Positions 5,940 to 29,900 of a stretch of DNA of 64,000 nucleotides are shown here, piece by piece (within the stretch, counting starts at the first letter, position 1; each line of letters begins with the position of its first letter). Origin of the DNA: Nocardioides kribbensis (GTDB lineage Bacteria; Actinomycetota; Actinomycetes; Propionibacteriales; Nocardioidaceae); NCBI RefSeq assembly GCF_015070375.1, contig NZ_JADCLL010000006.1:124001-188000 (forward strand), in the 5' to 3' direction. The notes below the pieces were generated by a model. It had not been told where the DNA came from, searched no databases, and was given only the letters and a program-made list of their open reading frames with translations. Made by a program: the position numbers and the translations under genes.

Positions 5940-7124
<1,185 letters not shown>

Positions 7125-7141
<17 letters not shown>

Positions 7142-8315
7142 CGGCCCACTCCCCTTCGTACTGCGCGGTCTGCTGGTCGTCGAGCGGCATGAAGTCGAAG
7201 GTCGCGGCGAGGGCCTCGTCGTCGGGGAAGATCAGCTTGTTGTCGACGAGGCTGGGATCGATCTTCTCCATCTCCTCGCGGGCGCCCTCGACGGGGCAGA
7301 TGTAGTTGACCCAGGAGGCGAGCTTCGCCGCCACGGCCGGCTCGTAGTAGTAGTCGATCCACGCCTCGGCGTTGGCGGTGTGGGTGGCGAGGTTGGGCAC
7401 GATCATGTTGTCGCTCCACAGCGCCAGCCCCTCCTCCGGCGTCACGAACTTGATGTCGGGGTTGTCGAACTGCAGCTGGATGACGTCGCCCGACCAGGCC
7501 TCGCAGGCCACGACGTTGCCCGCGGCGAGGTCCTGGACGTACTCGTTGCCGGTGAAGGAGCGCACGTGGCCGTCGGCCACGACCTGGCGCAGCCGGTCGA
7601 TGGCGTCGGCCCACTCGTCGTCGTCGAAGTCGCCCGGGTCGGCCCCGGTGACCTTGAGCATGAAGGCCATCGTGTCGCGCATCTCCGAGAGCAGGCTGAT
7701 GCGGCCCTTGAGGTCGGGACGGGTGAGGAGCTCCTCGAAGCTGCCGACGGCGTCGGTCCTGCTCGAGTCGTAGGCGATGCCGGTCAGGCCGGTCTGCCAC
7801 GGCGCGTGGTACCGCAGCTCGGGGTCCCACTGCACGCCGCGCAGGGGCTCGATGAGGTTGGCGTGCAGGTTCGGCACGCGGTCGGGGTCGAGGGGCTGGA
7901 TCCAGCCCAGACCGATCATGCGCGCCGCCATCCAGTCGGTCAGCATGATCAGGTCGCGGTCGATGGGCTCGCACGTGCCGAGCTGGTTGCGGACCTTGGC
8001 GTAGAACTCGGCGTTGTCGTTGACGTCGTCGGTGTAGTCGACCGTGATCCCGGTGCGCTCGGTGAACCCCATGAACGTGCCGTTCTTGTTGTTGCGGGGG
8101 TCGATGTACTGCGGCCAGTTGGAGATGACGAGCGAGCGGTCGCTCCCGGAGCGGTCGGCGGCGCGGCAGCTGGCGGGATCCTGGGCGGCGCCGGCGACCT
8201 CGAAGACGGGCAGCTTGAGCGCGGCGAGGCTGGCTCCGCCGAGGGCGAGCGCGCCGCCGCCGCGCAGGAGGGAGCGGCGACTGAGGCCGGTGGGTCGGTG
8301 GGACGGGACGCTCAC
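7125..8315 (-). CDS. potD: Polyamine-type ABC transporter substrate-binding protein, Tat-exported, PotD-like
   Basis: Extracytoplasmic solute receptor, 396 residues. It begins with a Tat-type signal: SRRSLL at residues 12-17, then a Gly/Ala-rich hydrophobic stretch. No lipobox cysteine is visible, so it may be released or held by the signal. Family features include VISNWPQYIDP at the mature N-terminus (compare the WxxYI of PotD/PotF), APWQTGLTGIAYD and a C-terminal NYICPVEGA region. The GTG start at 8315 is preceded by GGAAGGAG at good spacing. It is the first gene of the five-gene operon and is divergent from the Lrp regulator. Ligand identity (putrescine, spermidine or another amine) is inferred. 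Confidence 0.9.
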
Positions 8316-8359
8316 GACACTCCTTCCGGGGCACGGGCTGGCACGAGAGCAAGTGCTCG

Positions 8360-8389
8360 GATCGTGCCACGATCACCCCGGGTCGACAA
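8360..8389 (-). promoter_or_regulatory. Promoter of the potDABC operon with overlapping inverted repeat
   Basis: On the minus strand TTGTCG (8389-8384) and CACGAT (8366-8361) are separated by 17 bases, with a predicted transcript start near 8354 and a leader of about 39 bases. GATCGTgccACGATC (8360-8374) is a palindrome that overlaps the -10 and could be a repressor site. Confidence 0.5.
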
Positions 8390-8418
8390 GCGATCCGGTC
8401 GAGACGAAACCTTCCCGC

Positions 8419-8430
8419 AACGAAATCGTT
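8419..8430. promoter_or_regulatory. AACGA-N2-TCGTT palindrome, candidate operator
   Basis: AACGAaaTCGTT lies between the divergent potD and Lrp promoters. A nearly identical site, with the flanking GC and TTC also shared, occurs at 11986-11997 upstream of the SBP56 gene. Placement upstream of both promoters suits an Lrp-type or other dimeric regulator; this is an inference. Confidence 0.4.
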
Positions 8431-8474
8431 CGTCAAACCCCCCGCCATGCGTCCGAGAGCACCCCGCGAGGCGG

Positions 8475-8480
8475 TACCTT
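8475..8480 (+). promoter_or_regulatory. -10 element of the leaderless Lrp gene
   Basis: TACCTT ends six bases before the ATG at 8487, and no ribosome binding site precedes the ATG. The arrangement matches seven other genes in this window. Confidence 0.4.
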
Positions 8481-8486
8481 GCGGGC

Positions 8487-8960
8487 ATGAGTCGCAAGCC
8501 CGGACGTCCCACGACCCACCTCGACGACGTCTCCAAGGCCATCATCGAGCAGCTGCAGCAGGACGGCCGGCGCTCCTACGCCGCGATCGGCAAGGTCGTC
8601 GGCCTCTCGGAGGCCGCCGTGCGCCAGCGGGTCCAGCGACTCACCGAGAGCGGCGTCATCCAGGTCGTCGCGGTCACCGACCCGCTGCAGCTGGGCTTCG
8701 CGCGCCAGGCGATGGTCGGCATCAAGGCCACGGGCCCGCTCGAGCCGCTGGCCGACACCCTGGCCGAGATGCCGGAGGTCGACTACGTCGTCATCACGGC
8801 CGGGTCCTACGACCTGCTGGTGGAGGCCGTCTGCGAGTCCGACGAGCACCTGTTGGAGCTGCTCTCGACGCGCATCCGCACCATCCCCGGCGTCGTGGCC
8901 ACGGAGACCTTCATGTACCTCGAGCTGCGCAAGCAGACCTACTCCTGGGGTGTGCGCTGA
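8487..8960 (+). CDS. Lrp/AsnC family transcriptional regulator
   Basis: DNA-binding regulator of 157 residues. The N-terminal helix-turn-helix spans about residues 28-52 (SYAAIGKVVGLSEAAVRQRV), followed by a RAM ligand-binding/oligomerisation domain (about 75-150) ending in TFMYLELRKQTYSWG. The N-terminal SRKPGRP is a basic extension. It is divergent from potD and overlaps the next FAD oxidase gene, so it very likely senses an amine or amino acid and controls the transporter and oxidase genes. The ATG at 8487 has no Shine-Dalgarno but a -10 six bases upstream. Target and ligand are inferred from position. Confidence 0.9.
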   Translation: MSRKPGRPTTHLDDVSKAIIEQLQQDGRRSYAAIGKVVGLSEAAVRQRVQRLTESGVIQVVAVTDPLQLGFARQAMVGIKATGPLEPLADTLAEMPEVDYVVITAGSYDLLVEAVCESDEHLLELLSTRIRTIPGVVATETFMYLELRKQTYSWGVR

Positions 8961-10333
8961 GCGCGGACCCGCGCTCGCTCTCGCTGTGGCACGCCACCGC
9001 GGGCGGGTCGTGGGCCCCACGGCCCGCGCTGCCCGGGGACCGCGAGGCCGACGTGGCCGTCGTCGGCGCCGGGCTCACGGGCCTGTGGACCGCGCTCTAC
9101 CTCGCCCGCGCCGACCCCACGCTGCGGATCGTGGTGCTCGAGGCCGAGACCGCCGGCTTCGGCGCCTCGGGACGCAACGGCGGCTGGTGCTCGGCGCTCT
9201 TCCCGGCCTCGCTGCCCACGCTCGCGGCGGCGTCCTCACGGCGGGCCGCCCTGGCCCAGCACGCCGCGATGCGCGCGAGCGTCGACGAGGTCGCCCGGGC
9301 CTGCGCCGAGGAGGGCGTCGACGCCCAGCTGGCCAAGGGCGGCACCATCGTGCTCGCGCGCAGCCGGCCCCAGCTCGCCCGGGCCCGCGCCGAGGTCGAC
9401 GCCGCCCGCGCCTGGGGGCGTGACGAGGACGACCTGCGCCTGCTCGGCCCCGCCGAGGCCGACGCCGTGCTGCGGGGCCGCGGGACCCTCGCCGCGACCT
9501 ACACCCCCGACTGCGCAGCACTCCACCCGGCACGCCTGGTGCGCGGCCTGGCCGAGGCGGTCGAGCGCCGCGGGGTGCTGATCCACGAGCGCACGCGGGC
9601 CACGTCGATCGGGCCCGGCCTGGTCGAGACCACCCACGGCACGGTGCGGGCCGACGTCGTCGTGCGCGCCACCGAGGGCTACACCGCCCGCCTGCCGGGT
9701 CACGCGCGCACGCTGGCCCCGGTCTACTCGCTCATGATCGCCAGCGAGCCCCTGCCCCCCGAGGTCTGGGAGGAGATCGGACTGGCGCGCCGCGAGACCT
9801 TCAGCGACCACCGCCACCTCGTGGTCTACGGCCAGCGCACCGCTGACGACCGGATCGTCTTCGGCGGCCGCGGCGCGCCCTACCACCTCGGCTCGCGCAC
9901 CCACCCGTCCTTCGACCGCGACGACCGGGTCTTCGCCGGACTCCACGCCGCCCTCCTCGACCTCTTCCCGGCGGTGCGCGGCACCCGCTTCACCCACGCC
10001 TGGGGCGGGGCGCTCGGCATCCCCCGCGACTGGTGCGCCTCGGTCGGCCTCGACCGCCGCAGCGGCCTGGCCTGGGCCGGGGGCTACGTCGGTGACGGCC
10101 TGAGCACCACCAACCTCGCCGGACGCACCCTGCGCGACCTGGTGCTGGGCCACGACACCGACCTCACCGCGCTGCCGTGGGTCGGCCACCGCTCCCCCGC
10201 GTGGGAGCCGGAGCCGCTGCGCTGGCTCGGCATCAACGCCGGCCTGACCGCGACGACCTGGGCCGACGCCGAGGAGCGACTCACCCGCCGCCCCTCGCTG
10301 CTGGCGCGCGCCACGGCCCCCTTCCTGGGCTGA
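8957..10333 (+). CDS. FAD-dependent amine oxidoreductase, probable CTG start
   Basis: Second DAO-superfamily flavoprotein, about 458 residues, paralogous to the protein at 2723-4171. Reading from CTG at 8957 gives LSLWHATAG, then VAVVGAGLTG with the FAD motif at residues 37-42, SGRNGGWCSALFP, and the C-terminal GGYVGDGLSTTN. No ATG, GTG or TTG in this frame lies between the regulator and the Rossmann motif except a GTG inside the first beta strand. The CTG forms a CTGA overlap with the regulator's stop, like the GTGA overlaps of the transporter operon. It probably oxidises an amine imported by the PotABCD-like system. Confidence 0.82.
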   Translation: MSADPRSLSLWHATAGGSWAPRPALPGDREADVAVVGAGLTGLWTALYLARADPTLRIVVLEAETAGFGASGRNGGWCSALFPASLPTLAAASSRRAALAQHAAMRASVDEVARACAEEGVDAQLAKGGTIVLARSRPQLARARAEVDAARAWGRDEDDLRLLGPAEADAVLRGRGTLAATYTPDCAALHPARLVRGLAEAVERRGVLIHERTRATSIGPGLVETTHGTVRADVVVRATEGYTARLPGHARTLAPVYSLMIASEPLPPEVWEEIGLARRETFSDHRHLVVYGQRTADDRIVFGGRGAPYHLGSRTHPSFDRDDRVFAGLHAALLDLFPAVRGTRFTHAWGGALGIPRDWCASVGLDRRSGLAWAGGYVGDGLSTTNLAGRTLRDLVLGHDTDLTALPWVGHRSPAWEPEPLRWLGINAGLTATTWADAEERLTRRPSLLARATAPFLG

Positions 10334-10482: not shown

Positions 10483-11850
10483 GTGCACGTCATCACCATC
10501 CCCCTGCCCGCCCTGGGCAACCGGTGCCACCTGGTGCACGACGGCGCCTCGGCGCTGGTCGTCGACCCGCCGCGCGACCTGCGCCCGGTCGAGCGGGCCG
10601 CCGAGCAGGCCGGCGTGGACATCCGCGTCGTCGCCGACACCCACGTGCACAACGACTACGTCTCCGGCGCCCTCGGGCTCGCCCGACGCCACGGCGCCGA
10701 CTACCTGCTCTCGGCCGACGAGGCGGTGGACTTCGAGCGGGTCGGCGTGCGCGACGGCGACCGCGTCGCCGTCGGCCGGATGAGCCTCGAGGTGCTCGCC
10801 ACGCCCGGCCACACCCGCCACCACCAGTCCTTCCTGGTCACCGGGGCCACCGGGGCGTCCGGCAGCCCCACCGCCGGCGCCGTGTTCAGCGGCGGCAGCC
10901 TCCTGCACGGCACCGTCGGTCGCACCGACCTGGTCGACCCGCGCCTGGCCACCGACCTCGCCCGCGCCCAGTGGCGCAGCGCCCGACGCCTCGCCGCGCT
11001 CGACCCCGCCACCCTGCTCCACCCCACCCACGGCTTCGGGTCCTTCTGCGCCGGCCGGCCCGCCGAGGCCGGCGACGGCGACGTCACCCTCGCCTCCCAG
11101 CTGACGACGAACCCCGTGCTGACCAAGGCCGAGGAGGCGTTCGTGTCCGACCTCGTCGCGGGCTTCGGCCCGGTCCCGCGCCACTACGCCCACATGGCTC
11201 CGCTCAACCGGGCCGGTGCCGGGCGCAGCGCCGGTCGGGCGGCGCGGCCGGTGACCGCGGCCCAGGTCTCCGACGCGGTGCTCGCCGGGGCCTGGGTCGT
11301 CGACCTGCGAGGACGCGACCGCTTCGCCGAAGGGCACCTGACCGGGTCGGTGAGCGTCGAGCAGGGCCCGCAGCTCGCGACGTACGTCGGCTGGCTGGTG
11401 CCGTGGGGCGACGACATCGTCCTGCTGACCGACGACCCCACCCGTCTCGGTGAGGCCGTGAGCGACCTCGCGGCCATCGGCATCGAGGGGGTCGGCACCC
11501 ACGTGCTCGACGGCAGCGAGGCCATGGGGGCCCGCTACCGCCGCACCGACTGGGCGGGCTACCGCACCGCCCCCGCCGGGGTGCGCCGCGTCGTCGTCGA
11601 CGTGCGTCAGCGTGACGAGTGGCAGTCGGGACACCTGCCCGGGGCCTTGCACCTGCCGGTGCAGGACGTCGAGCGGGCCGCGCACCGGCTGCCCGCCGGC
11701 GAGCTGTGGGTGCACTGCCGCTCGGGCTACCGCGCCGGCATCGCCGCCAGCCTGCTGCACCGCACCGGCCGCTCGGTGGTGCACGTGGACGACGGCTGGG
11801 AGCGGGTCGAGGAGCTCGCCATCCCCACCGTCGCCGGTCTCGCCGCCTAG
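10483..11850 (+). CDS. Metallo-beta-lactamase/rhodanese fusion, persulfide dioxygenase-like
   Basis: Cytoplasmic sulfur enzyme of the CstB/ETHE1 group, 455 residues. Residues 1-240 form a metallo-beta-lactamase fold with the metal motif THVHNDYVSG at 53-62 and TPGHTRHH at 108-115. Two rhodanese domains follow. The first (about 262-350) lacks an active-site cysteine and has TDDPTRL in its place; the second carries C412 in HCRSGYRA. Known family members oxidise persulfides made from sulfide to sulfite or thiosulfate. It sits upstream of a methanethiol-oxidase-like gene and a sulfur transporter, which fits disposal of released sulfide. The GTG at 10483 follows GGAGG. The reaction is inferred from the family. 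Confidence 0.88.
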   Translation: MHVITIPLPALGNRCHLVHDGASALVVDPPRDLRPVERAAEQAGVDIRVVADTHVHNDYVSGALGLARRHGADYLLSADEAVDFERVGVRDGDRVAVGRMSLEVLATPGHTRHHQSFLVTGATGASGSPTAGAVFSGGSLLHGTVGRTDLVDPRLATDLARAQWRSARRLAALDPATLLHPTHGFGSFCAGRPAEAGDGDVTLASQLTTNPVLTKAEEAFVSDLVAGFGPVPRHYAHMAPLNRAGAGRSAGRAARPVTAAQVSDAVLAGAWVVDLRGRDRFAEGHLTGSVSVEQGPQLATYVGWLVPWGDDIVLLTDDPTRLGEAVSDLAAIGIEGVGTHVLDGSEAMGARYRRTDWAGYRTAPAGVRRVVVDVRQRDEWQSGHLPGALHLPVQDVERAAHRLPAGELWVHCRSGYRAGIAASLLHRTGRSVVHVDDGWERVEELAIPTVAGLAA

Positions 11851-11985
11851 GCCCCCGACCCGGCGGCCACCACGGACCGCCCACCCCACGACCAGCCGTC
11901 CGGGCTCCCCGCGACGGCACCCCCGCCCCACCACGACCTCGGAGGTGACCCGACCAGATCCCCCAGCGGGACCCAGCAACACCGC

Positions 11986-11997
11986 AACGACATCGTT
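11986..11997. promoter_or_regulatory. AACGA-N2-TCGTT palindrome upstream of the SBP56 gene
   Basis: AACGAcaTCGTT lies 46 bases before the GTG at 12043 and matches the site at 8419-8430, including flanking bases (GCAACGA.ATCGTTC). It is followed by a GC-rich imperfect hairpin (11999-12024) and the ribosome binding site GGGAGG. It is a candidate operator shared by the amine and sulfur modules. Confidence 0.4.
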
Positions 11998-12042
11998 CAG
12001 AGGCGGCCCCCCGGCCGCCCCTCTCGGGAGGTGCTCCACCCC

Positions 12043-14058
12043 GTGTCAACATCCCACTCCGCGCGCTCGACGCGCCCCCGCACCCAGCGGACCCACAGCC
12101 GGTGGCGACTCGCCGCCGGCGCGAGCCTGGCCGCCCTCGGCCTGGCGTCCTCCGGTCTCGTCGCCCAGGCCCCCGCCTCGGCCAACGAGACCAACGAGCC
12201 GGGCAGCGACCCCGGCCAGCCCGTCGACATCGCCACCCCGGCGATCGCGACGCTCAACGGCCTCATCCAGTCGCTGTTCAACTCCGAGATCATCAGCCAG
12301 ACCTCGAAGATCATCGGCGCCGACGACCGGGCCTACTGGCTGACCAACAACCTCGAGTCCGACCTCATCCCGACCACGGTCCTGCAGGACCTCGGCCTCG
12401 GCGACGTCATCCCGGACCTCGGGCTGGGCGGCGGGGACTCGGGCGGCACGGTGCCCGACGACGGACTGCGCCGCGAGTACCTCGTGGTGTGGGCCGGCGA
12501 CAACAACATCCTCGACCGCACCGGCAAGGAGCTGACCTCGCTCCCCGAGGTGGTCAACTCCGACCTCCTCGGCACGCAGGACCTCATCGGCCCCGACTTC
12601 TTCGCGGTCGTCGACGCCACCAAGGGCTCCTCCAGCTACGGCAAGGTGGTCAACACCGCCACGGTCGGCCCGCTGGTCGAGAACGAGCCCCACCACATGC
12701 AGTACATCTGGCACAAGGGCAACAACATCTTCGCCGGCGGGCTCTTCACCGACGTCACCTACGTCATCGACACCTCCCGGCTCCCCGCCCTCGAGCTCAA
12801 GCACGTCAACCTGCCCACCGACACCCTGTGCGGCTCCGTGCCCGACGCCTACTGGGTGACCAAGGACGGCGGCGCCTACGGCACCTACATGGGCGGCCCC
12901 GACGTGCCCGGCCCCTGCACCTACAGCGACGGCACGACGCGCATCGGCAACGGCTTCGCCGGCTCCCCCGGCGAGCTGGTCCGGCTGGACGAGAACGGCG
13001 AGACCGTCTACGAGGCGCCGGCGACCCCGCTCACCGCGGAGACGAAGGAGCGCTGCGACAACATCCCGCAGCTGCCCGCCGCCACCTGCGCCAACCCGCA
13101 CGGCATCCAGGTGCGCGAGGACCTCGACACGCTGATCACCAGCGACTACAACGAGCCCCGCAACATCATCCTCAACCCGGTGGCCGCGCCCTCGTCGTAC
13201 CTGCGCCGGCCCACCGTGCGCACCTGGGACATCTCCGACCCCGACGAGCCGAAGCTCAAGGCGGTCTCCTTCCTGCCCGACGGGCCCCGGGTGGGCAAGG
13301 TCGCCCACCACGAGGAGAACCGCGCGGTCATGGAGACCACGGTGACCAACCAGCCGGGCCACAAGGGCGCCTTCGCCTCCACCATGCAGGGCGGTGCGAT
13401 CTTCTACAGCCCCGACATCACCGCGGCGAGGCCGGAGTGGCGCGAGGTCTTCGACCTCTCCACCGCCAACAAGCAGATCGCCCCCGACCAGAACCCCTAC
13501 GGCGGCGGCGTCAACAGCGCCTGGATCCAGACCAGCCTCGACGACAAGTACCTCTACAACGCCGTCGCGGGGCGCTCGGCCAGCGGCACCGACCAGGGCA
13601 GCAAGCCCTTCATCCTCAAGCTCGACATCCAGCAGCTGGTGGCCTCCGGGGGCGACCCCGAGTGCAGCATCGACACCATCGAGGAGACCGTCGAGGGAGG
13701 CGCCGAGAGCGACTGCCCTGCTGTGGTCGACATCCTCGAGGCGCCCGGCGGCCCCCACTGGGGCACCCTGGACAACCTCGAGCTCGGTGAGGACGGCTAC
13801 TACCACGAGACCACCGACGTGAAGCGGATCGCCTACTCGAACTACTTCGTGGCCCGCACGGGCCTCGACGGCGACCACCGCGTCTGCATGGTCGACATCG
13901 CCGAGGACGCCACCATGGCGATCGACGAGGAGTTCGCCGACGAGAACACCGGCGAGCCGTGCCTCGACTTCGACCGCGAGGAGTGGCCCCACGGCGTGTG
14001 GGGCCCGGCCAAGCCGCACTCGATGCTCTTCGTCACCGCCGACGACGACATCCGCTGA
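12043..14058 (+). CDS. Exported SBP56/methanethiol oxidase-like protein
   Basis: Member of the selenium-binding protein 56 family, whose bacterial copper-dependent members (MtoX) oxidise methanethiol to formaldehyde, hydrogen peroxide and sulfide. 671 residues, longer than the usual 430-480. The N-terminus is a Sec-type signal: basic residues, then LAAGASLAALGLASSGLVA and a likely cleavage after APASA. Family-like segments include PDFFAVVDATKGSSSYGKVV, NEPHHMQYIWHKGN, ANPHGIQVREDLDTLITSDY and GGPHWGTLDNL, consistent with a beta propeller. The stop at 14058 is followed 20 bases later by the next gene. I chose GTG 12043; GTG 12031 is an alternative. Family assignment is from motif recall, and activity is an inference. 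Confidence 0.72.
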   Translation: MSTSHSARSTRPRTQRTHSRWRLAAGASLAALGLASSGLVAQAPASANETNEPGSDPGQPVDIATPAIATLNGLIQSLFNSEIISQTSKIIGADDRAYWLTNNLESDLIPTTVLQDLGLGDVIPDLGLGGGDSGGTVPDDGLRREYLVVWAGDNNILDRTGKELTSLPEVVNSDLLGTQDLIGPDFFAVVDATKGSSSYGKVVNTATVGPLVENEPHHMQYIWHKGNNIFAGGLFTDVTYVIDTSRLPALELKHVNLPTDTLCGSVPDAYWVTKDGGAYGTYMGGPDVPGPCTYSDGTTRIGNGFAGSPGELVRLDENGETVYEAPATPLTAETKERCDNIPQLPAATCANPHGIQVREDLDTLITSDYNEPRNIILNPVAAPSSYLRRPTVRTWDISDPDEPKLKAVSFLPDGPRVGKVAHHEENRAVMETTVTNQPGHKGAFASTMQGGAIFYSPDITAARPEWREVFDLSTANKQIAPDQNPYGGGVNSAWIQTSLDDKYLYNAVAGRSASGTDQGSKPFILKLDIQQLVASGGDPECSIDTIEETVEGGAESDCPAVVDILEAPGGPHWGTLDNLELGEDGYYHETTDVKRIAYSNYFVARTGLDGDHRVCMVDIAEDATMAIDEEFADENTGEPCLDFDREEWPHGVWGPAKPHSMLFVTADDDIR

Positions 14059-14078
14059 GACGCGACGAGGACTCGACG

Positions 14079-15362
14079 ATGACGTCGTACGACGACACCA
14101 CCCCGGGGCGGGACCGGTCCGACCGGTCCCGCCTCCGGGCGGTCCTGACCCTCGGCGCGGCCGGAGCCGTGGCGGCCCTCGTGGTCGCCGGCGCCGTCAG
14201 CGCCGGGGCCGGACCGTCGGGCTCCGACCCGCGCGAGGGCAGCGCCCTCGTGACGGACTGGACCGCCCGCACCGACGGCCAGCAGGTCCTCGGCGGCGAG
14301 CGGGAGCCCGGCGTCCCCACGATCCAGCGGATCCGGCACGACGACGTGCAGTTCACCGTGACCGTCGCGCCCGCCCGTCCGGGCCCCAACCTCGTGCGCA
14401 TCGACGCGCTCCACGTGGAGCGTCGCTCCGAGGGACGCCCCGGCGCGGCCGGTCACGCCACCAAGCCCGCCTGGGTCGGCACCAGCGAGGACTCCCTGGT
14501 CAAGGCGGTGCCGCGACCCGGCACCGACGGCCTGTGGGCCACCGTCGACCTGCCCGAGGGCAGCGGCACCGTGCTGGTGACCCACGGCCGCTGGCACCGC
14601 GTGCCCTTCGCGGTCGAGACGGGCGCCGACACCCCGGACACCTCGCTGTGGACCGGCGACGACGGCCCCGAGTGCGTCGCGGCCGCCACGGCCGAGGTCA
14701 TCACGGGGGCCCTCCCCTCGGTGTGCCCGGCCGCCGGGCTCAAGCAGCCCGACGAGACGGCGCTGCTCGCCGTGGTCGACACCCTGGCCGCCCGCGGCGT
14801 CGAGGAGCTGGCCGTCGAGCACGACCCGTCGGCCCGCAGCCGGCAGGCCCTCGCGGCCGTGACCGCCCGCGCCGAGGACCTCGGCGTCGAGGTGGTCGAC
14901 CCCGCGGCCGCACCCGGCGAGCGCAACGCGCTGCTCGTCGTGAGCGGGTGGGCCGACGCGGCCCGCTCACTGGCCGAGGTCACCGCCACCCCGCTGCGCC
15001 AGCAGCCGATCCGCTCCGACGGCACGTGGCTGGCCCCCTGGCTGCTCTCGCCGGGCGTGGTCGACTCCACCGCCGGCGCCATGGTGCCGCTGGACTTCGA
15101 CATCCGGACCCCGGAGGCGCGCGACTTCAGCGCGACGCTGGCGACCTACCTGCCGGGCCAGTCGCCGACCTCCAGCGGCTTCGCCGCGTGGCGCAGCCAG
15201 CACGCCCAGGATCCGCTCCCCCTGGCGCTCTACGCCGCCTCCCGCGCGGCGTACATGCCCAGCCAGCGCGGTCACGAGGGCCACGAGACGCAGGTCGCGT
15301 GGTTCCCCGGCGGCACCGTCACCCCGGTCGGGCTCCCGCTCGAGCCGCCGATCGCGCGCTGA
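14079..15362 (+). CDS. Membrane-anchored protein of unknown function with CopC/YtkA-like domain
   Basis: I do not recognise this 427-residue protein as a named family. A short cytoplasmic tail is followed by one membrane segment (about residues 21-43) and a long outer part. Residues about 85-180 resemble the CopC/YtkA/CopD C-terminal beta sandwich (FTVTVAPARPGPNLVRID and GLWATVDLPEGSGTV). Residues about 195-330 look like an alternating alpha/beta region (ALLAVVDTLAARGVEELAVE, NALLVVSGWADAARSL), as in type I periplasmic-binding folds. The tail has a GHEGHET cluster and FPGG. It follows the SBP56 gene by 20 bases, so it is likely in the same operon. A role in copper supply or complex assembly for that enzyme is a guess. 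Confidence 0.6.
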   Translation: MTSYDDTTPGRDRSDRSRLRAVLTLGAAGAVAALVVAGAVSAGAGPSGSDPREGSALVTDWTARTDGQQVLGGEREPGVPTIQRIRHDDVQFTVTVAPARPGPNLVRIDALHVERRSEGRPGAAGHATKPAWVGTSEDSLVKAVPRPGTDGLWATVDLPEGSGTVLVTHGRWHRVPFAVETGADTPDTSLWTGDDGPECVAAATAEVITGALPSVCPAAGLKQPDETALLAVVDTLAARGVEELAVEHDPSARSRQALAAVTARAEDLGVEVVDPAAAPGERNALLVVSGWADAARSLAEVTATPLRQQPIRSDGTWLAPWLLSPGVVDSTAGAMVPLDFDIRTPEARDFSATLATYLPGQSPTSSGFAAWRSQHAQDPLPLALYAASRAAYMPSQRGHEGHETQVAWFPGGTVTPVGLPLEPPIAR

Positions 15363-15393
15363 GCCCTCCACCCCCCCAGACCCCGCCACGACC

Positions 15394-15421
15394 CGGCCCC
15401 GGCGCTCCGCCGGGCCCCGGG
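15394..15421 (+). other. Imperfect GC-rich hairpin in the gap before the yeeE-like gene
   Basis: The 78-base gap 15363-15440 holds an imperfect inverted repeat built from CCCCGGCG and CGCCGGG blocks. A TAGATT hexamer at 15425-15430 follows and could be the -10 of a near-leaderless transcript for the transporter gene (ten bases before the ATG at 15441). Confidence 0.3.
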
Positions 15422-15440
15422 ACCTAGATTGGACACCACC

Positions 15441-16694
15441 ATGTCGATCCTCCAACGCCCCCAGGTGGGCCGCTCCGCACCGCCGGGACCTCCCGCCCAG
15501 GACGCCCCCGCACCCCAGGCCGGCATCGTGCTCGGCGGTCTCGTGGCCGCCGGGGTGCTCGGCGCCGTCATCTTCGCCCGCTCCGGGCAGACCCCCGCCG
15601 TGCTCTTCGGCCTGGGGCTGTCCCTCGGCTTCGTGCTCTTCCACTCCCGCTTCGGCTTCACCTCGGCCTGGCGCCAGCTGGTCGCGGTCCGGCAGGGCAA
15701 GGCCCTGCGTGCCCACATGCTGATGCTCGCGGTGGCCTGCACGCTCTTCGCCCCGATCCTCGCCACCGGGGTCTCCTTCGGTGACGCGGCGCCCACGCCC
15801 ACGCTGGCCCCCATCGGCTTCGGGCTCTTCGTCGGCTCCTTCCTCTTCGGCGTCGGCATGCAGCTGGGCGGCTCCTGCGCCTCCGGCACCCTCTTCGCGA
15901 TCGGATCAGGCCAGAGCGCCATCGTGCTCACGCTGCTCGGCTTCGTCGTCGGCTCGGTGCTGGCCGCCCGCACCTTCTCCTTCTGGACCGGGCTGCCCAG
16001 CTTCGAGCCGGTCTCCCTGGCCGACACCGGCGCGGGCTACCTCGGCGCCTGGGCCATCTCCCTGGCGGTGATGGCCGCGATCGTCGGGCTCACCTTCGTC
16101 CTCGGACGGGGCCGCAGCGTGCCCCCGGTCGAGCCGCCGCCGGTGGCGCGGGGGGCCGCACGGGCCGTGCGCGGCTCCTGGCCGCTGTGGGTCGGGGCCC
16201 TGCTGCTGGCCGGGCTCAACGCCCTCACCCTGCTGGTCTCCGGCGGCGCCTGGGGCATCACCTTCGCCTTCGGCCTGTGGGGCTCGAAGGTCCTCGACGC
16301 CCTCGGTGTCGACGTGCTCGGCTGGCCCTTCTGGAGCGACCCGGCCAACCTCGCGAAGTACCAGGCCGGCGTGCTGGCCGAGAAGACCTCGGTGATGGAC
16401 CTCGGCATCATCGTCGGGGCGCTCATCGCCTCGGCCGCGGCCGGGTCGTGGGTGCTGCACCGGCGCATCCCCGCCAAGCTGGCCCTCGGGGCCGTGCTCG
16501 GCGGCGTCATCATGGGCTACGGCGCCCGGATCGCCTTCGGCTGCAACATCGGCGCCTACTTCGGCGGGATCGCCTCCTTCAGCCTGCACGGCTGGCTGTG
16601 GGGGGTCATGGCCGTGGTCGGCACCGTCGCCGGGCTCGCCCTGCGCCCGCTCTTCGGGCTGACGAACCCCCGCCCCACCGACTCCGTCTGCTAG
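15441..16694 (+). CDS. YeeE/YedE family sulfur-compound transporter
   Basis: Polytopic membrane protein of 417 residues with about nine to ten hydrophobic segments in two internal halves. The conserved cysteines of the thiosulfate importer YeeE have counterparts here: C146 in GGSCASGT and C368 in FGCNIGAYFGG, each in a helix break. Characterised relatives import thiosulfate by relaying it along cysteines. It follows the sulfur-oxidation genes on the same strand, so it may move thiosulfate or sulfane sulfur between the two compartments. No Shine-Dalgarno is seen; ATG 15441 is preferred over TTG 15429. Family call is strong, substrate is inferred. Confidence 0.87.
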   Translation: MSILQRPQVGRSAPPGPPAQDAPAPQAGIVLGGLVAAGVLGAVIFARSGQTPAVLFGLGLSLGFVLFHSRFGFTSAWRQLVAVRQGKALRAHMLMLAVACTLFAPILATGVSFGDAAPTPTLAPIGFGLFVGSFLFGVGMQLGGSCASGTLFAIGSGQSAIVLTLLGFVVGSVLAARTFSFWTGLPSFEPVSLADTGAGYLGAWAISLAVMAAIVGLTFVLGRGRSVPPVEPPPVARGAARAVRGSWPLWVGALLLAGLNALTLLVSGGAWGITFAFGLWGSKVLDALGVDVLGWPFWSDPANLAKYQAGVLAEKTSVMDLGIIVGALIASAAAGSWVLHRRIPAKLALGAVLGGVIMGYGARIAFGCNIGAYFGGIASFSLHGWLWGVMAVVGTVAGLALRPLFGLTNPRPTDSVC

Positions 16695-25038: not shown

Positions 25039-26556
25039 TCACTCCACGTCGACCCAGTCCAGCGTGCGCTCGACCGCCTTCTTCCACTGGGTGTAACCCG
25101 CCTGGCGACGCTCCTCATCCCACTGTGGCGACCATCTCCTCGCCTCGTTCCAGTTCTCGCGCAGCTCGTCGGTGTTGTTCCAGAACCCGACGGCCAGACC
25201 GGCGGCGTAGGCCGCGCCGAGCGCCGTGGTCTCGGCCACGACGGGTCGGCTGACCTCGACGCCGAGCACGTCGGCCTGGATCTGCATGCACAGCTCGTTG
25301 GCGGTCACGCCGCCGTCGACCTTGAGCACCTCCAGGGTCACGCCGGAGTCCTTCTCCATGGCCTCGGCGACGTCACGCGACTGGTAGCAGATCGACTCCA
25401 GCGTGGCGCGGGCCAGGTGGGCGTTGGTGTTGAAGCGCGAGAGCCCGACGATGGCGCCGCGGGCGTCGGAGCGCCAGTAGGGCGCGAAGAGGCCCGAGAA
25501 GGCCGGCACGAAGTAGACCCCGCCGTTGTCGTCGACCTGGCGGGCCAGCGACTCGCTCTGCGCGGCGCCGGAGATGATCCCGAGCTGGTCGCGCAGCCAC
25601 TGCACCGCCGAGCCGGTCACCGCGATGGAGCCCTCGAGGGCGTAGACGGTGTCCTGGTCGCCGAACTTGTAGCAGACCGTGGTGAGCAGGCCCGACTTCG
25701 ACCTCACCAGCTCGGTGCCGGTGTTGAGCAGCATGAAGTTGCCGGTGCCGTAGGTGTTCTTGGCCTCGCCGGGGGCGAAGCAGACCTGGCCGACCGTGGC
25801 GGCCTGCTGGTCGCCGAGGATGCCGGTGAGGGGCACCTCGCCGCGCAGCGGGCCGTTGGCCCGGGTGGTGCCGTAGCCGCCCGGCTCGGAGGAGGAGCGG
25901 ATCTCGGGCAGCATCTGTCGCGGGATGTCGAAGAGGGCCAGCAGCTCGTCGTCCCACTGCAGGGTCTCGAGGTCCATCAGCATGGTGCGGCTGGCGTTGG
26001 TCGGCTCGGTGACGTGCACGCCGCCGTCGGTGCCGCCGGTGAGGTTCCAGATCAGCCAGGAGTCGGTGTTGCCGAAGATCGCGTCGCCGGCCTCCGCGGC
26101 CTCGCGGACCCCGTCGACGTTCTCCAGGATCCACTGGATCTTGCCACCGGAGAAGTACGTCGCGGGCGGCAGGCCCGCCCGCTCCCGGATCAGGTCGCCG
26201 TGGCCGTCGCGCTCGAGCTTGCTGGCGATCCGGTCGGTGCGGGTGTCCTGCCACACGATGGCGTTGTAGTAGGGCCGCCCGGTCTTGCGATTCCACACCA
26301 CGGTGGTCTCGCGCTGGTTGGTGATGCCGAGCGCGCAGAGGTCCTCGGCGGTGAGCTTGGCCTTGCCGAGCCCGGTCTCGATGACCGAGCGGGTGCGCTC
26401 CCAGATCTCCACCGGGTCGTGCTCCACCCAGCCGGCCTGCGGCAGGATCTGCTCGTGCTCGAGCTGGTGGCGGGCCACCTCGTTGCCGCCGTGGTCGAAG
26501 ATCATGAAGCGGGTGCTGGTGGTGCCCTGGTCGACGGCTCCGACGTACTCGGCCAT
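25039..26556 (-). CDS. glpK: Glycerol kinase
   Basis: Phosphorylates glycerol with ATP to glycerol-3-phosphate. 505 residues of the FGGY family: [13 protein letters not shown] at 9-21, [23 protein letters not shown], the FGGY-type signature region around [13 protein letters not shown], and [13 protein letters not shown] near the C-terminus. The ATG at 26556 follows a strong AGGAGG. Together with glpF and glpD it forms a full uptake and oxidation route. A second, divergent glycerol kinase gene lies at 28371. The 86-base gap to glpF and the 134-base gap to glpD consist of short GGTGCTGG-type repeats. Confidence 0.96.
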
Positions 26557-26642
26557 GCGTGCCTCCTGGTGTGGGTGGGTGCTGCTGGTGCTGGTGGTGG
26601 GACTGGCGCTGGGGCTGGTGCCGGGGGCGGTGACGGGTCCGG

Positions 26643-27473
26643 TCACTGGTTGGGCCGGGGCTCGCTGACCGCCTCGTCCTGGGCGCCGTCGGCGGGGTCC
26701 TCGGTGAGGTGGTTCTCGATGAGCAGCTTGAAGAGCGCGCCGCCGATGAGGCCGCCGATGATCGGGGCGATGATCGGCAACCAGAAGTACAGGTCGCCGT
26801 TCTGGTCGTTGAGCGCCCCGCCGTAGCCGGTCATGAGCGAGGCCAGGCGCGGCCCGAGGTCGCGGGCGGGGTTGATGGCGTAGCCGGCGTTGGCGCCGAA
26901 GGCCATGCCGATGGCCACCACGAGCAGGCCGACCACGACCGGGCCGAGGTTGGCCAGGGGCGGGTTGTTCCACGCCGTGGTGAGGGCGAAGATCACGAAG
27001 ACGAGGATCGCGGTGCCGACGACCTGGTCGAGGAAGGCCGTGGGGATGCTGACGCCCGCGCCACCGTTGCCGGGCAGCGTGGAGAAGATGCCCTGGGTCT
27101 TGATGGTGTGGTCGGGGTCGACGGTCGCGATGAGGTCGGCGTAGGTGGCGCGCACGATGAGTGCCGCGACGAAGGCGCCGAGGAGCTGGGCGAGGGAGTA
27201 GGGCAGCACCTTGCGCCAGGAGAAGCCCTTGAAGGCCGCGAGCGCGATGGTGACCGCCGGGTTGAGGTGGGCGCCCGACAGGCGGGCGGCGACGTAGACG
27301 CCGAGCGTGACGCCGAGGCCCCAGGCCCAGGCGATCGAGTCGTGGTCGCCGAGGCTGCCGTCGGCGCTGGTCGACACCTGGGCGACCACGCCCGTGCCGA
27401 ACAGGATCAGGATCATCGTGCCGGCGAACTCCGCACAGAGCTCGCCGACCAGGGGGTTCTTCGTGGACCGCAA
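26643..27473 (-). CDS. glpF: Glycerol facilitator (aquaglyceroporin)
   Basis: Membrane channel for passive glycerol entry, 276 residues with six membrane spans and two half-helices. The two NPA boxes are [10 protein letters not shown] (NPA at 71-73) and [10 protein letters not shown] near residue 208; Asp after the second box is the aquaglyceroporin signature. The C-terminal tail is acidic. The start is TTG at 27473, chosen because GGGAGGAG precedes it at good spacing and the protein then begins [16 protein letters not shown], like other family members. First gene of glpFKD, divergent from the IclR regulator across a palindromic region. Confidence 0.95.
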
Positions 27474-27621: not shown

Positions 27622-28374
27622 GTGGCCACCATCCAGTCCATCGAGCGGGCCGCGGCCGTGCTCCACGTGCTCGGCGCGGTGCACGAGCCGGTGGCGCTCG
27701 GAGAGCTCTCCCGCCTGCTCGACCTGCCCAAGCCCACCGTGCACGGGATCGTGCGCACCCTGTGCGAGGTCGGCTTCGTGACCCAGGAGCCCGACACCGG
27801 CCGCTACGCCCTGGGCTCGGGCCTGGCCACCCTGGGCGAGGGTCTCGATCCCCACCTGCTGCGCTCGCGCGCCGTCAACTGGGCCGACGGGCTCGCGGCG
27901 CGCACCGGCATGGAGGTCGAGCTGGGCGTGCTGACCGGGCGCACCGTCGAGCTCGTGCACCACGTCTTCCGCCCCGACGGCTCGCCCCAGCGCCTGCGCG
28001 TCGGCGAGCTGCAGCCGCTGGCCACCAGCGCCCTCGGCCTCGTGCTGCTCGCCTTCTCCCCCGCGGTGAGCGCCTCGGCGGCCCGCGAGGCGGGCGACCC
28101 GACCCCCCGGGTCTCGCTCGCCCGTGCGGTGCAGCTGGCCCGCCGCCAGGGATGGGCCTGCGTCGACAGCACGCTGCGCCCCGGTGTCGCCACCCTCGCG
28201 GCTCCCCTGCGCCGCCACCTGGGGCACAGGCTCGGGGTGGGGGTGGGCGCGCTGGGCGTCAGCGGACCGCGCGACCGCGTCCTCGGGCCGTCCGGCGAGC
28301 CCCGCGACGACCTGGTCACGCAGGTCGTCGCCGCCGCCCACGCCGTCTCCTCGACCCTGCAGGAGCGGCTGTGA
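27622..28374 (+). CDS. IclR family regulator of glycerol genes (GylR-like)
   Basis: Transcription regulator of 250 residues. The winged helix-turn-helix lies at about residues 5-65 ([22 protein letters not shown]), and the C-terminal IclR effector domain spans about 80-245. It is divergent from glpF and overlaps the second glycerol kinase gene (GTGA), so it should control both arms through the palindromes at 27569-27606. In Streptomyces the related GylR represses the gyl operon and responds to glycerol-3-phosphate; the same effector is a reasonable inference here. Starts with GTG at 27622, leaderless. Confidence 0.9.
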
Positions 28375-29900
28375 GCGCGTCGTACGTCGCCTCGATCGAC
28401 CAGGGCACCACCTCCACGCGGTGCCTGCTCTTCGACCACGCGGGGCGGATGGTCTCGGTGGCGCAGCACGAGCACCACCAGCACTACCCCCGGCCCGGCT
28501 GGGCCGAGCACGACGCGGCCGAGATTTGGGCCAACACGCTGCGGGTGCTGCCCGAGGCCCTGGCGCTCGCGGGGCTCCAGCCCTCCGACGTGGCCGCGGT
28601 GGGCATCGCCAACCAGCGCGAGACCACGGTGGTCTGGGACCGCGCCACCGGGCGACCGGTCGCACCCGCCATCACCTGGCAGGACACCCGCACCGCCGAC
28701 CTGGTCGCCGAGCTCGGCCGCAGCGCCGCCGCGCCGCTCTTCGAGGAGGTCTGCGGGCTGACACCGGCCGGCTACTTCGCCGCGCCCCGGCTGCGGTGGC
28801 TGCTCGACCACGTGCCGGGCCTGCAGCGCCGGGCCCGGCTCGGCGAGGTCGCCTTCGGCACGATGGAGTCCTGGCTGATCTGGAACCTCACCGGCGGCCC
28901 TGACGGCGGCGTCCACGTCACCGACGTCACCAACGCCAGCCGCACCATGCTGATGGACATCCACACCCTGCAGTGGGACCAGCGCCTGCTCGACGCCCTC
29001 GACGTGCCGGCGGCGATGCTGCCCGAGATCCGCCCCAACGCCCAGGTCTACGGCACCTGCACGGTCGGGCTGCCGGGTGTCGTCATCGGCGGCGCCTTCG
29101 GCGACCAGCAGGCCGCGCTCTTCGGGCAGACCTGCTTCGACGAGGGCGAGGCCAAGTGCACCTACGGCACCGGCGCCTTCCTGCTGATGAACACCGGCGC
29201 CAGCGTCACGCCCTCCACGCACGGCCTGCTCTCGACGGTCGCCTACGCCCTCGAGGGCGAGCAGCCCGTCTACGCCACCGAGGGGTCGATCGCCGTGGCC
29301 GGGGCGCTCGTGCAGTGGTTCCGCGACTCGCTGGAGATGATCTCCTCGGCCCCCGAGATCGAGACCCTCGCACGTCGCGTGGAGGACAACGGCGGGTGCT
29401 ACATCGTGCCGGCCTTCGCCGGCCTCTTCGCCCCCCGCTGGCAGGCCGACGCGCGCGGCGTCGTCGTGGGCCTCACGTCCTACGTCACCCGCGGTCACCT
29501 CGCGCGGGCCGTGCTCGAGGCCACCGCCTGGCAGACCTGCGAAGTGGTGGAGGCCGTCGACCTCGACACCTCGCTGACCCTGTCACGGCTGCGGGTCGAC
29601 GGCGGCATGACCGCCAACCACCTGCTGATGCAGACGGTCGCCGACGTGCTCGACGTGCCGGTCGAGCGGCCGCTGGTGGCCGAGTCGGTCTCGCTCGGGG
29701 CGGCCTACGCCGCCGGCCTGGCCGTCGGCTTCTGGCCCGACCTCGATGTCCTGCGCGGCACGTGGCGCCGCGCGGCGCTGTGGGAGCCGTCGATGAGCCC
29801 CGTCGTGCGCCGCCGGGAGCGGGCGGCCTGGGACCGCGCGGTGCAGCGCACCCTGCACTGGGTGGTCGACGAGGACCCCGACGCCGCACCACCCGGCTGA
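28371..29900 (+). CDS. glpK: Second glycerol kinase
   Basis: FGGY-family kinase of 509 residues, clearly paralogous to the product of 25039-26556: [50 protein letters not shown] and [13 protein letters not shown] are all present, so it looks intact and active. It differs in the N-terminal glycerol-contact region and lacks the GGYGTT loop segment seen in the first copy. The GTG at 28371 overlaps the IclR stop, so it is made with the regulator rather than with glpF and glpD. Whether it serves glycerol, dihydroxyacetone or another polyol is open. Confidence 0.9.

Follow-up and report, generated by a model that had tools for sequence, protein, structure and literature searches.

The Nocardioides kribbensis locus

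A stretch of 64,000 nucleotides from Nocardioides kribbensis (contig NZ_JADCLL010000006.1, positions 124,001 to 188,000; hereafter the window) carries four co-directional genes on the + strand at 10483-16694, all of which were confirmed to be present. An earlier sequence-only reading had described them as a C1-sulfur oxidation module with an exported enzyme resembling the methanethiol oxidase MtoX. Comparison across actinobacterial genomes places the core of the system in a two-gene unit, consisting of a predicted secreted beta-propeller related to SBP56 and a CopD-derived, membrane-anchored protein encoded by the adjacent orf3, to which a YeeE-type importer is usually added. The features of the locus are:

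10483-11850, + strand: fusion of metallo-beta-lactamase (MBL) and rhodanese domains (MBL-rhodanese), 455 residues, resembling type III persulfide dioxygenases (PDO), with CstB-like architecture (Pfam, structure matches)
12043-14058, + strand: SBP56-like protein, a 671-residue beta-propeller; GTG start, ribosome-binding site GGGAGG upstream (profile, fold model, Foldseek)
12043-12183, + strand: predicted signal peptide of the SBP56-like protein, cleavage after ASA (residue 47), by inspection of the sequence
14079-15362, + strand: orf3, 427 residues, membrane-anchored, with a FixH/YtkA-like beta domain, a domain like type I periplasmic binding proteins (PBP-I) and an M/H-rich tail loop (homology, co-occurrence)
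15441-16694, + strand: transporter of the YeeE/YedE family (Sulf_transp, by Pfam); ATG start preferred, TTG at 15429 possible
16726-16743/16752-16769, + strand: hairpin downstream of the YeeE gene, a perfect 18-bp inverted repeat with an 8-nt loop (sequence)

The gaps between successive genes measure 192, 20 and 78 bp. The hairpin gives a 100-nt fold of -58.5 kcal/mol, lacks a T-run and is probably a terminator of the type without one. The consecutive genes and the inverted repeat were thus found as first described, and the neighbourhood survey recovered the four-gene order in related Nocardioides (L009, L015-L018, L021, L022, L026), so that the order is not a product of chance and the expectation of conserved neighbours was upheld. 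Neighbouring genes were called with a home-made codon-bias gene caller, by which small genes may be missed; the surveyed set includes the 80 top-scoring loci out of 139, themselves related to each other, and the counts given below ignore phylogeny.

A remote member of the SBP56 superfamily

Both human SELENBP1 and the bacterial methanethiol oxidase belong to the SBP56 proteins, a superfamily in which, to our knowledge, few groups have a known activity. In a Pfam scan the SBP56-like protein matched SBP56 (PF05694) with an E-value of 6.1e-4 and 19.1 bits, under the curated cut-off of 34, and the NCBIfam MtoX model (NF052453) gave 21.8 bits against an equivalog cut-off of 650. A family alignment, which grew from nine relatives to 41 and then 48, was compared by hhalign with true actinobacterial SBP56, yielding an E-value of 6e-7 locally and a global end-to-end probability of 94% (hhalign E-values for this family are single-comparison values). 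The AlphaFold (AF2) model of the protein (pLDDT 80.4, pTM 0.85) retrieved SBP56 of Sulfolobus tokodaii (2ECE) as its top Foldseek match (E 1.2e-16), the best match over the whole propeller, and the VIA comparison of the two gave Z 29.5 over 375 aligned residues at 20% identity. A direct phmmer search of the protein against the PDB returned no match, while a profile search with the family reached 2ECE at just E 0.0025; a Pfam SBP56 search of the N. kribbensis genome likewise returned nothing, because the protein is too divergent and not because the gene is absent.

The protein is therefore a remote member of the SBP56/methanethiol-oxidase superfamily, set by score outside the curated Pfam and NCBIfam families. 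Membership in the superfamily, as first proposed, is borne out by the hhalign profile and the 2ECE fold match, and a signal peptide is apparent by inspection, with N-terminal hydrophobic leaders also present in the relatives. The MtoX-like identity, however, is not supported in its original form, since the protein is far from characterized MtoX, given the 21.8 bits and the loss of one of the four proposed copper ligands, the tryptophan of the SEW motif and the C-terminal GGDC motif. MtoX of Hyphomicrobium VS and Ruegeria (PF05694) resembles the protein in its beta-propeller, signal peptide, paired histidines (HH), C-terminal histidine and a copper-type gene directly downstream, but is shorter (435 against 671 residues), and its loci encode SCO1/SenC and MauG where a CopD-derived partner is found here. 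Identity to SBP56 is about 18-20% where the two align, and relative to 2ECE the protein contains large insertions and no equivalent of the HxxH motif.

A candidate metal site

The proposed copper ligands of MtoX are His89, His90, His140 and His412 (PMC5739008), and the residues important for activity in human SELENBP1 are H73, H74, H137, H140, D189 and E252 (PMC10362175). In the SBP56-like protein, H217, H218, H572 and H659 are invariant in all 48 aligned relatives:

12691-12696, + strand: His217-His218, aligned with the HH of SBP56 (MtoX His89-His90, human H73-H74); 48/48
13756-13758, + strand: His572 (GGPH), where SBP56 has Gln (GGPQ); 48/48, by alignment
14017-14019, + strand: His659 (KPHS), near the C-terminal His of SBP56 (MtoX His412); 48/48, by a global alignment that is approximate in this stretch

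By alignment, three of the four proposed ligands are thus kept (H217, H218 and H659) and His140 is lost, so that the loss of the copper ligands considered in the sequence-only reading applies to one position only. The HxxH motif is absent, with GSVPDAY in its place. His572 is an invariant histidine additional to those of MtoX, and H353 and H612 occur in every family member but one distant sequence. The protein is probably a copper enzyme.

orf3 derives from CopC-CopD-type copper proteins

A homolog of orf3 is the gene directly after the SBP56-like gene in 77 of 83 loci. Among 198 Nocardioidaceae genomes the SBP56-like gene occurs in six and orf3 in exactly five, the five with the close SBP56-like form (4e-10 by counting, ancestry uncorrected); orf3 is an obligate partner of the SBP56-like gene. 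In Pfam neither the window orf3 nor any of three long relatives scored above cut-off, and Foldseek with a long orf3 gave weak matches (best E 0.02), PBP-I proteins among them. Homologs outside Nocardioides are usually longer, with an extra multi-helix N-terminal region, and the predicted fold of one such relative (L050; pLDDT 91) comprises helices, a beta domain and an alpha/beta domain.

The origin of orf3 emerges from a distant clade (L011, L111, L112), in which a protein of ~950 residues at the orf3 position holds CopC, a CopD match and Peripla_BP_6 in one chain. The orf3 family aligns with this fusion by hhalign at E 7.7e-12, the aligned part running from CopD to the PBP domain; orf3 of G601, a genome grouped with a Sporichthya metagenome-assembled genome (MAG), scores 30.1 bits for CopD against a cut-off of 32.1; and at least three Met/His residues are found in the examined tail region of 71 of 77 orf3 proteins. 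Taken together, these observations indicate that orf3 is CopD-derived and, by sequence comparison, a shortened derivative of CopC-CopD-type copper proteins, probably retaining a copper-related role. The window protein keeps a single N-terminal hydrophobic segment (by inspection), the beta domain and a shortened PBP-like domain, while the multi-helix CopD part is present only in relatives. The earlier description as a membrane protein of unknown function needs correction: most of the protein is probably extracytoplasmic, and both its CopC/CopD descent and its obligate partnership had been missed.

The YeeE-type transporter is a preferential partner

The fourth gene was correctly identified as a YeeE-type transporter, with a Pfam Sulf_transp match (E 6.8e-63; 213.5 bits against a cut-off of 27) and similarity to TsuA structures. 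It shares the Sulf_transp domain and the cysteine motifs GGxCASG and GCNIG with the thiosulfate importer YeeE/TsuA but differs in the cysteine region of the first helix. Its NCBIfam scores fall below the equivalog cut-off for TsuA (80.3 bits against 400) and that for YedE/FdhT, the top-scoring model (129.7 bits against 350).

YeeE is found close to the SBP56-like/orf3 pair at about 50 of 83 loci. All five Nocardioidaceae genomes with orf3 have it, against 18 of the other 193 (1.4e-5 by counting). Most Nocardioides and Pseudonocardiaceae loci have YeeE close by, Amycolatopsis and some Saccharopolyspora being exceptions, and in two loci it is inverted; mapped on the tree, its presence requires several label changes (6 when truncated loci are excluded; 11 for the YeeE-only group). 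Eight of nine genomes without a local YeeE have a homolog with 51-58% identity elsewhere in the genome. YeeE is thus a preferential partner of the pair.

MBL-rhodanese is a resident neighbor

The first gene product matches Rhodanese (1.4e-17) and Lactamase_B (1.6e-5) in Pfam and the structures 3TP9 (E 2e-48) and 3R2U (E 3e-41), and shares the MBL-rhodanese-rhodanese architecture of type III persulfide dioxygenases (CstB, 3R2U; ScPDO, SCO0618). ScPDO of Streptomyces coelicolor is active (PMC7533328), and the iron triad of these enzymes consists of two His and one Asp (PMC12856154). In the window protein THxHND and PGHT are kept, but SGG replaces SGD at the iron-ligand Asp; Gly occupies this position (SGG or TGG) in all 11 Nocardioides-type sequences, in the paralog of the same genome and in L104. 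The persulfide dioxygenase-like assignment is thereby weakened, and PDO activity is uncertain.

In Nocardioides, MBL-rhodanese precedes the SBP56-like/orf3/YeeE trio at one syntenic locus, flanked by genes named by eye as polyamine transporter, Lrp-like and FAD oxidoreductase genes on one side and kinase-like and LOG-like genes on the other. Sister loci dissociate the components: L129 has MBL-rhodanese without the trio, L131 lacks the trio and has a broken MBL-rhodanese (6558-7934), L023 and L024 have the trio without MBL-rhodanese, and L145 has YeeE alone. MBL-rhodanese was not found in the Pseudonocardiaceae loci, and its presence in 43 of 121 Nocardioidaceae genomes marks it as a general gene of the family. 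The gene is consequently an optional resident neighbor and no core member, contrary to its inclusion in the module as first drawn, and a single indivisible four-gene module is ruled out by the sister loci with and without the trio or MBL-rhodanese. A looser functional link to the SBP56-like system is plausible, since in L025 the trio, at a different position on the chromosome, has another MBL-rhodanese (45% identical) behind it, and one is divergent from an SBP56-like gene in L104, a locus from another family.

The N. kribbensis genome also encodes a second MBL-rhodanese (about 41-43% identical, SGG motif) at L127 (C10:212000-230000). Here a CsoR-like gene, a rhodanese, the MBL-rhodanese and a TauE-like exporter gene (6485-9929) form a set resembling the ScPDO sulfane-sulfur circuit of S. 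coelicolor (PMC7533328). FCSD_central, the sulfide dehydrogenase type, was not found in this genome.

Sulfur assimilation genes adjoin the pair in Streptomyces

Plasmids and 344 Streptomyces genomes were searched for the SBP56-like/orf3 pair. The pair was found, with a 4 bp gene overlap in most cases, the plasmid copies being annotated as hypothetical proteins. Sulfite reductase comes next on three plasmids, those of S. lavendulae (pSA3239), NBC_00158 and NBC_01276, and in four further genomes (L165-L168). Except in L168, where the contig ends upstream and only a short part was read, each of these strings has cysD, cysN and genes for sulfonate transport beside it, mostly with cysH as well, in one of two arrangements; cysC and ssu genes also occur in the clusters around the pair. 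In NBC_00726 cysD adjoins the pair, and NBC_00887 has a short Sir-like fragment. The cys genes are not near the pair in lineages other than Streptomyces. This context is a separate link to sulfur and favors a role in sulfur acquisition or assimilation.

Proposed function and alternatives

The relation to SBP56, the invariant histidines, the CopC/CopD partner and the sulfur-related neighbors in separate lineages point to a secreted, copper-dependent extracellular oxidase for sulfur acquisition, an interpretation for which we see about an even chance. The beta-propeller would be exported, and orf3 would help to load copper into it; downstream of the characterized mtoX, too, lies a gene for a copper chaperone, SCO1/SenC (PMC5739008). 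It would then oxidize an extracellular reduced sulfur compound (a thiol, a persulfide or another organosulfur compound; methanethiol is possible) at a variant of the MtoX histidine site. The released sulfur would be taken up by YeeE as a thiosulfate-like species and assimilated or oxidized, by MBL-rhodanese in Nocardioides and by sulfite reductase in Streptomyces. The shared sulfur pathway first suggested thus keeps its association with sulfur, but the C1 chemistry, from methanethiol to formaldehyde, has no support in the data.

Several observations weigh against this interpretation. The position of MtoX His140, part of the HxxH motif, falls in the D268/Y270 region of the protein. Many unrelated beta-propellers reach a VIA Z similar to that of 2ECE, albeit with shorter alignments and lower identity, so that the SBP56 claim depends on the sequence profile, the fold by itself being unspecific. 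The window orf3 has no transmembrane CopD part, which makes copper transport across the membrane by orf3 alone unlikely. In 18 of the other 193 Nocardioidaceae genomes YeeE is present while the pair is missing, and the Streptomyces cases are few and related.

The obligate CopD/CopC-type partner and the M/H-rich loop in orf3 relatives would also suit an extracellular protein that is no enzyme but binds or buffers copper (or acts as sensor or receptor), its sulfur link reflecting copper-sulfur stress physiology. We judge this unlikely, as sulfur assimilation genes and YeeE neighbor the pair in unrelated settings, no further recurrent neighbor family resembles copper resistance, and the SBP56 superfamily includes enzymes.

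Somewhat less probable again is a divergent but true exported methanethiol oxidase, converting CH3SH and O2 to formaldehyde and sulfane sulfur or sulfide, with the sulfur handled by PDO and YeeE. Such coupling has a precedent in Ruegeria, where MtoX yields sulfane sulfur that is removed by PDO (PMC10936201); the SBP56 homology and the kept HH and C-terminal His agree with it, as does a relative (L028) in Pseudonocardia sulfidoxydans, whose name records sulfide oxidation. The MtoX score lies far below the cut-off, however, and HxxH, the SEW tryptophan and GGDC are lost. No SCO1/mauG partner was seen, although the scan for SCO1/MauG domains did not take in every flanking gene; the sizeable recurrent neighbor families were just orf3, YeeE and small peptides. 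Moreover, no formaldehyde-oxidation gene is linked, the Streptomyces partners point to assimilation, and a true SBP56 coexists with the present family in the Sporichthya MAG (L114), so that their roles probably differ.

One C1-sulfur oxidation unit with an integral MBL-rhodanese would account for the recurrent Nocardioides order and for the separate adjacencies in L025 and L104, but is improbable in view of L023, L024, L129, L131 and L145, the Pseudonocardiaceae loci and the wide occurrence of MBL-rhodanese in Nocardioidaceae. A selenium-handling system, suggested by the SBP56 name and the YedE/FdhT top score of the transporter, is very improbable, as that score is below cut-off, the Streptomyces partners are sulfate and sulfonate genes, and no selenoprotein or SelD-type neighbor was noticed, no search having been aimed at them.

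Returning to the copper-dependent oxidase, we propose with some reserve, and slightly less confidently than the function itself, that the proteins constitute a family of secreted copper enzymes which has not been described so far, occurs widely in actinobacteria and would attack an extracellular sulfur compound oxidatively for sulfur acquisition. They would combine an SBP56-type propeller having a shifted histidine set (HxxH lost, GGPH gained) with a copper-delivery partner from CopC-CopD-PBP fusions. A literature search on SBP56 with YeeE, actinobacterial mtoX, and Pseudonocardia with dimethyl disulfide found no account of such a system, in agreement with the earlier statement that no operon of this composition had been described. 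If correct, such a group, whose metal site has changed in part and whose copper-protein partner is fixed, would reveal the way in which the propeller has been adapted. It would also indicate that sulfur is scavenged outside the cell in actinobacteria, both antibiotic producers and soil dwellers.

Further gene contexts

In Pseudonocardiaceae (L027-L094) two families of small secreted peptides of about 60-117 residues flank the pair, in 54 and 46 loci; they have a conserved C-terminal motif such as PLGVPVLGLIQS and belong to no Pfam family. G601 has three SBP56-like copies, one of which is flanked on both sides by genes for molybdenum hydroxylase-like large and small subunits (L107, 1347-3641 and 8867-11674). 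The true SBP56 gene of the Sporichthya MAG has a gene for a sulfide dehydrogenase-like flavoprotein after it (L114, 9044-11599). Upstream of the distant SBP56-like genes in two genomes of different classes lies a pair of similar-looking proteins of the type GTFRL.....G..GSYFRM, of no known family (L011, 6727-8264; L112, 8254-9917). Elsewhere in the window, two glycerol-kinase-like genes (25039-26646 and 28371-29900) lie on opposite strands less than 5 kb apart and surround an aquaporin-like and a regulator-like gene, all identified by eye.

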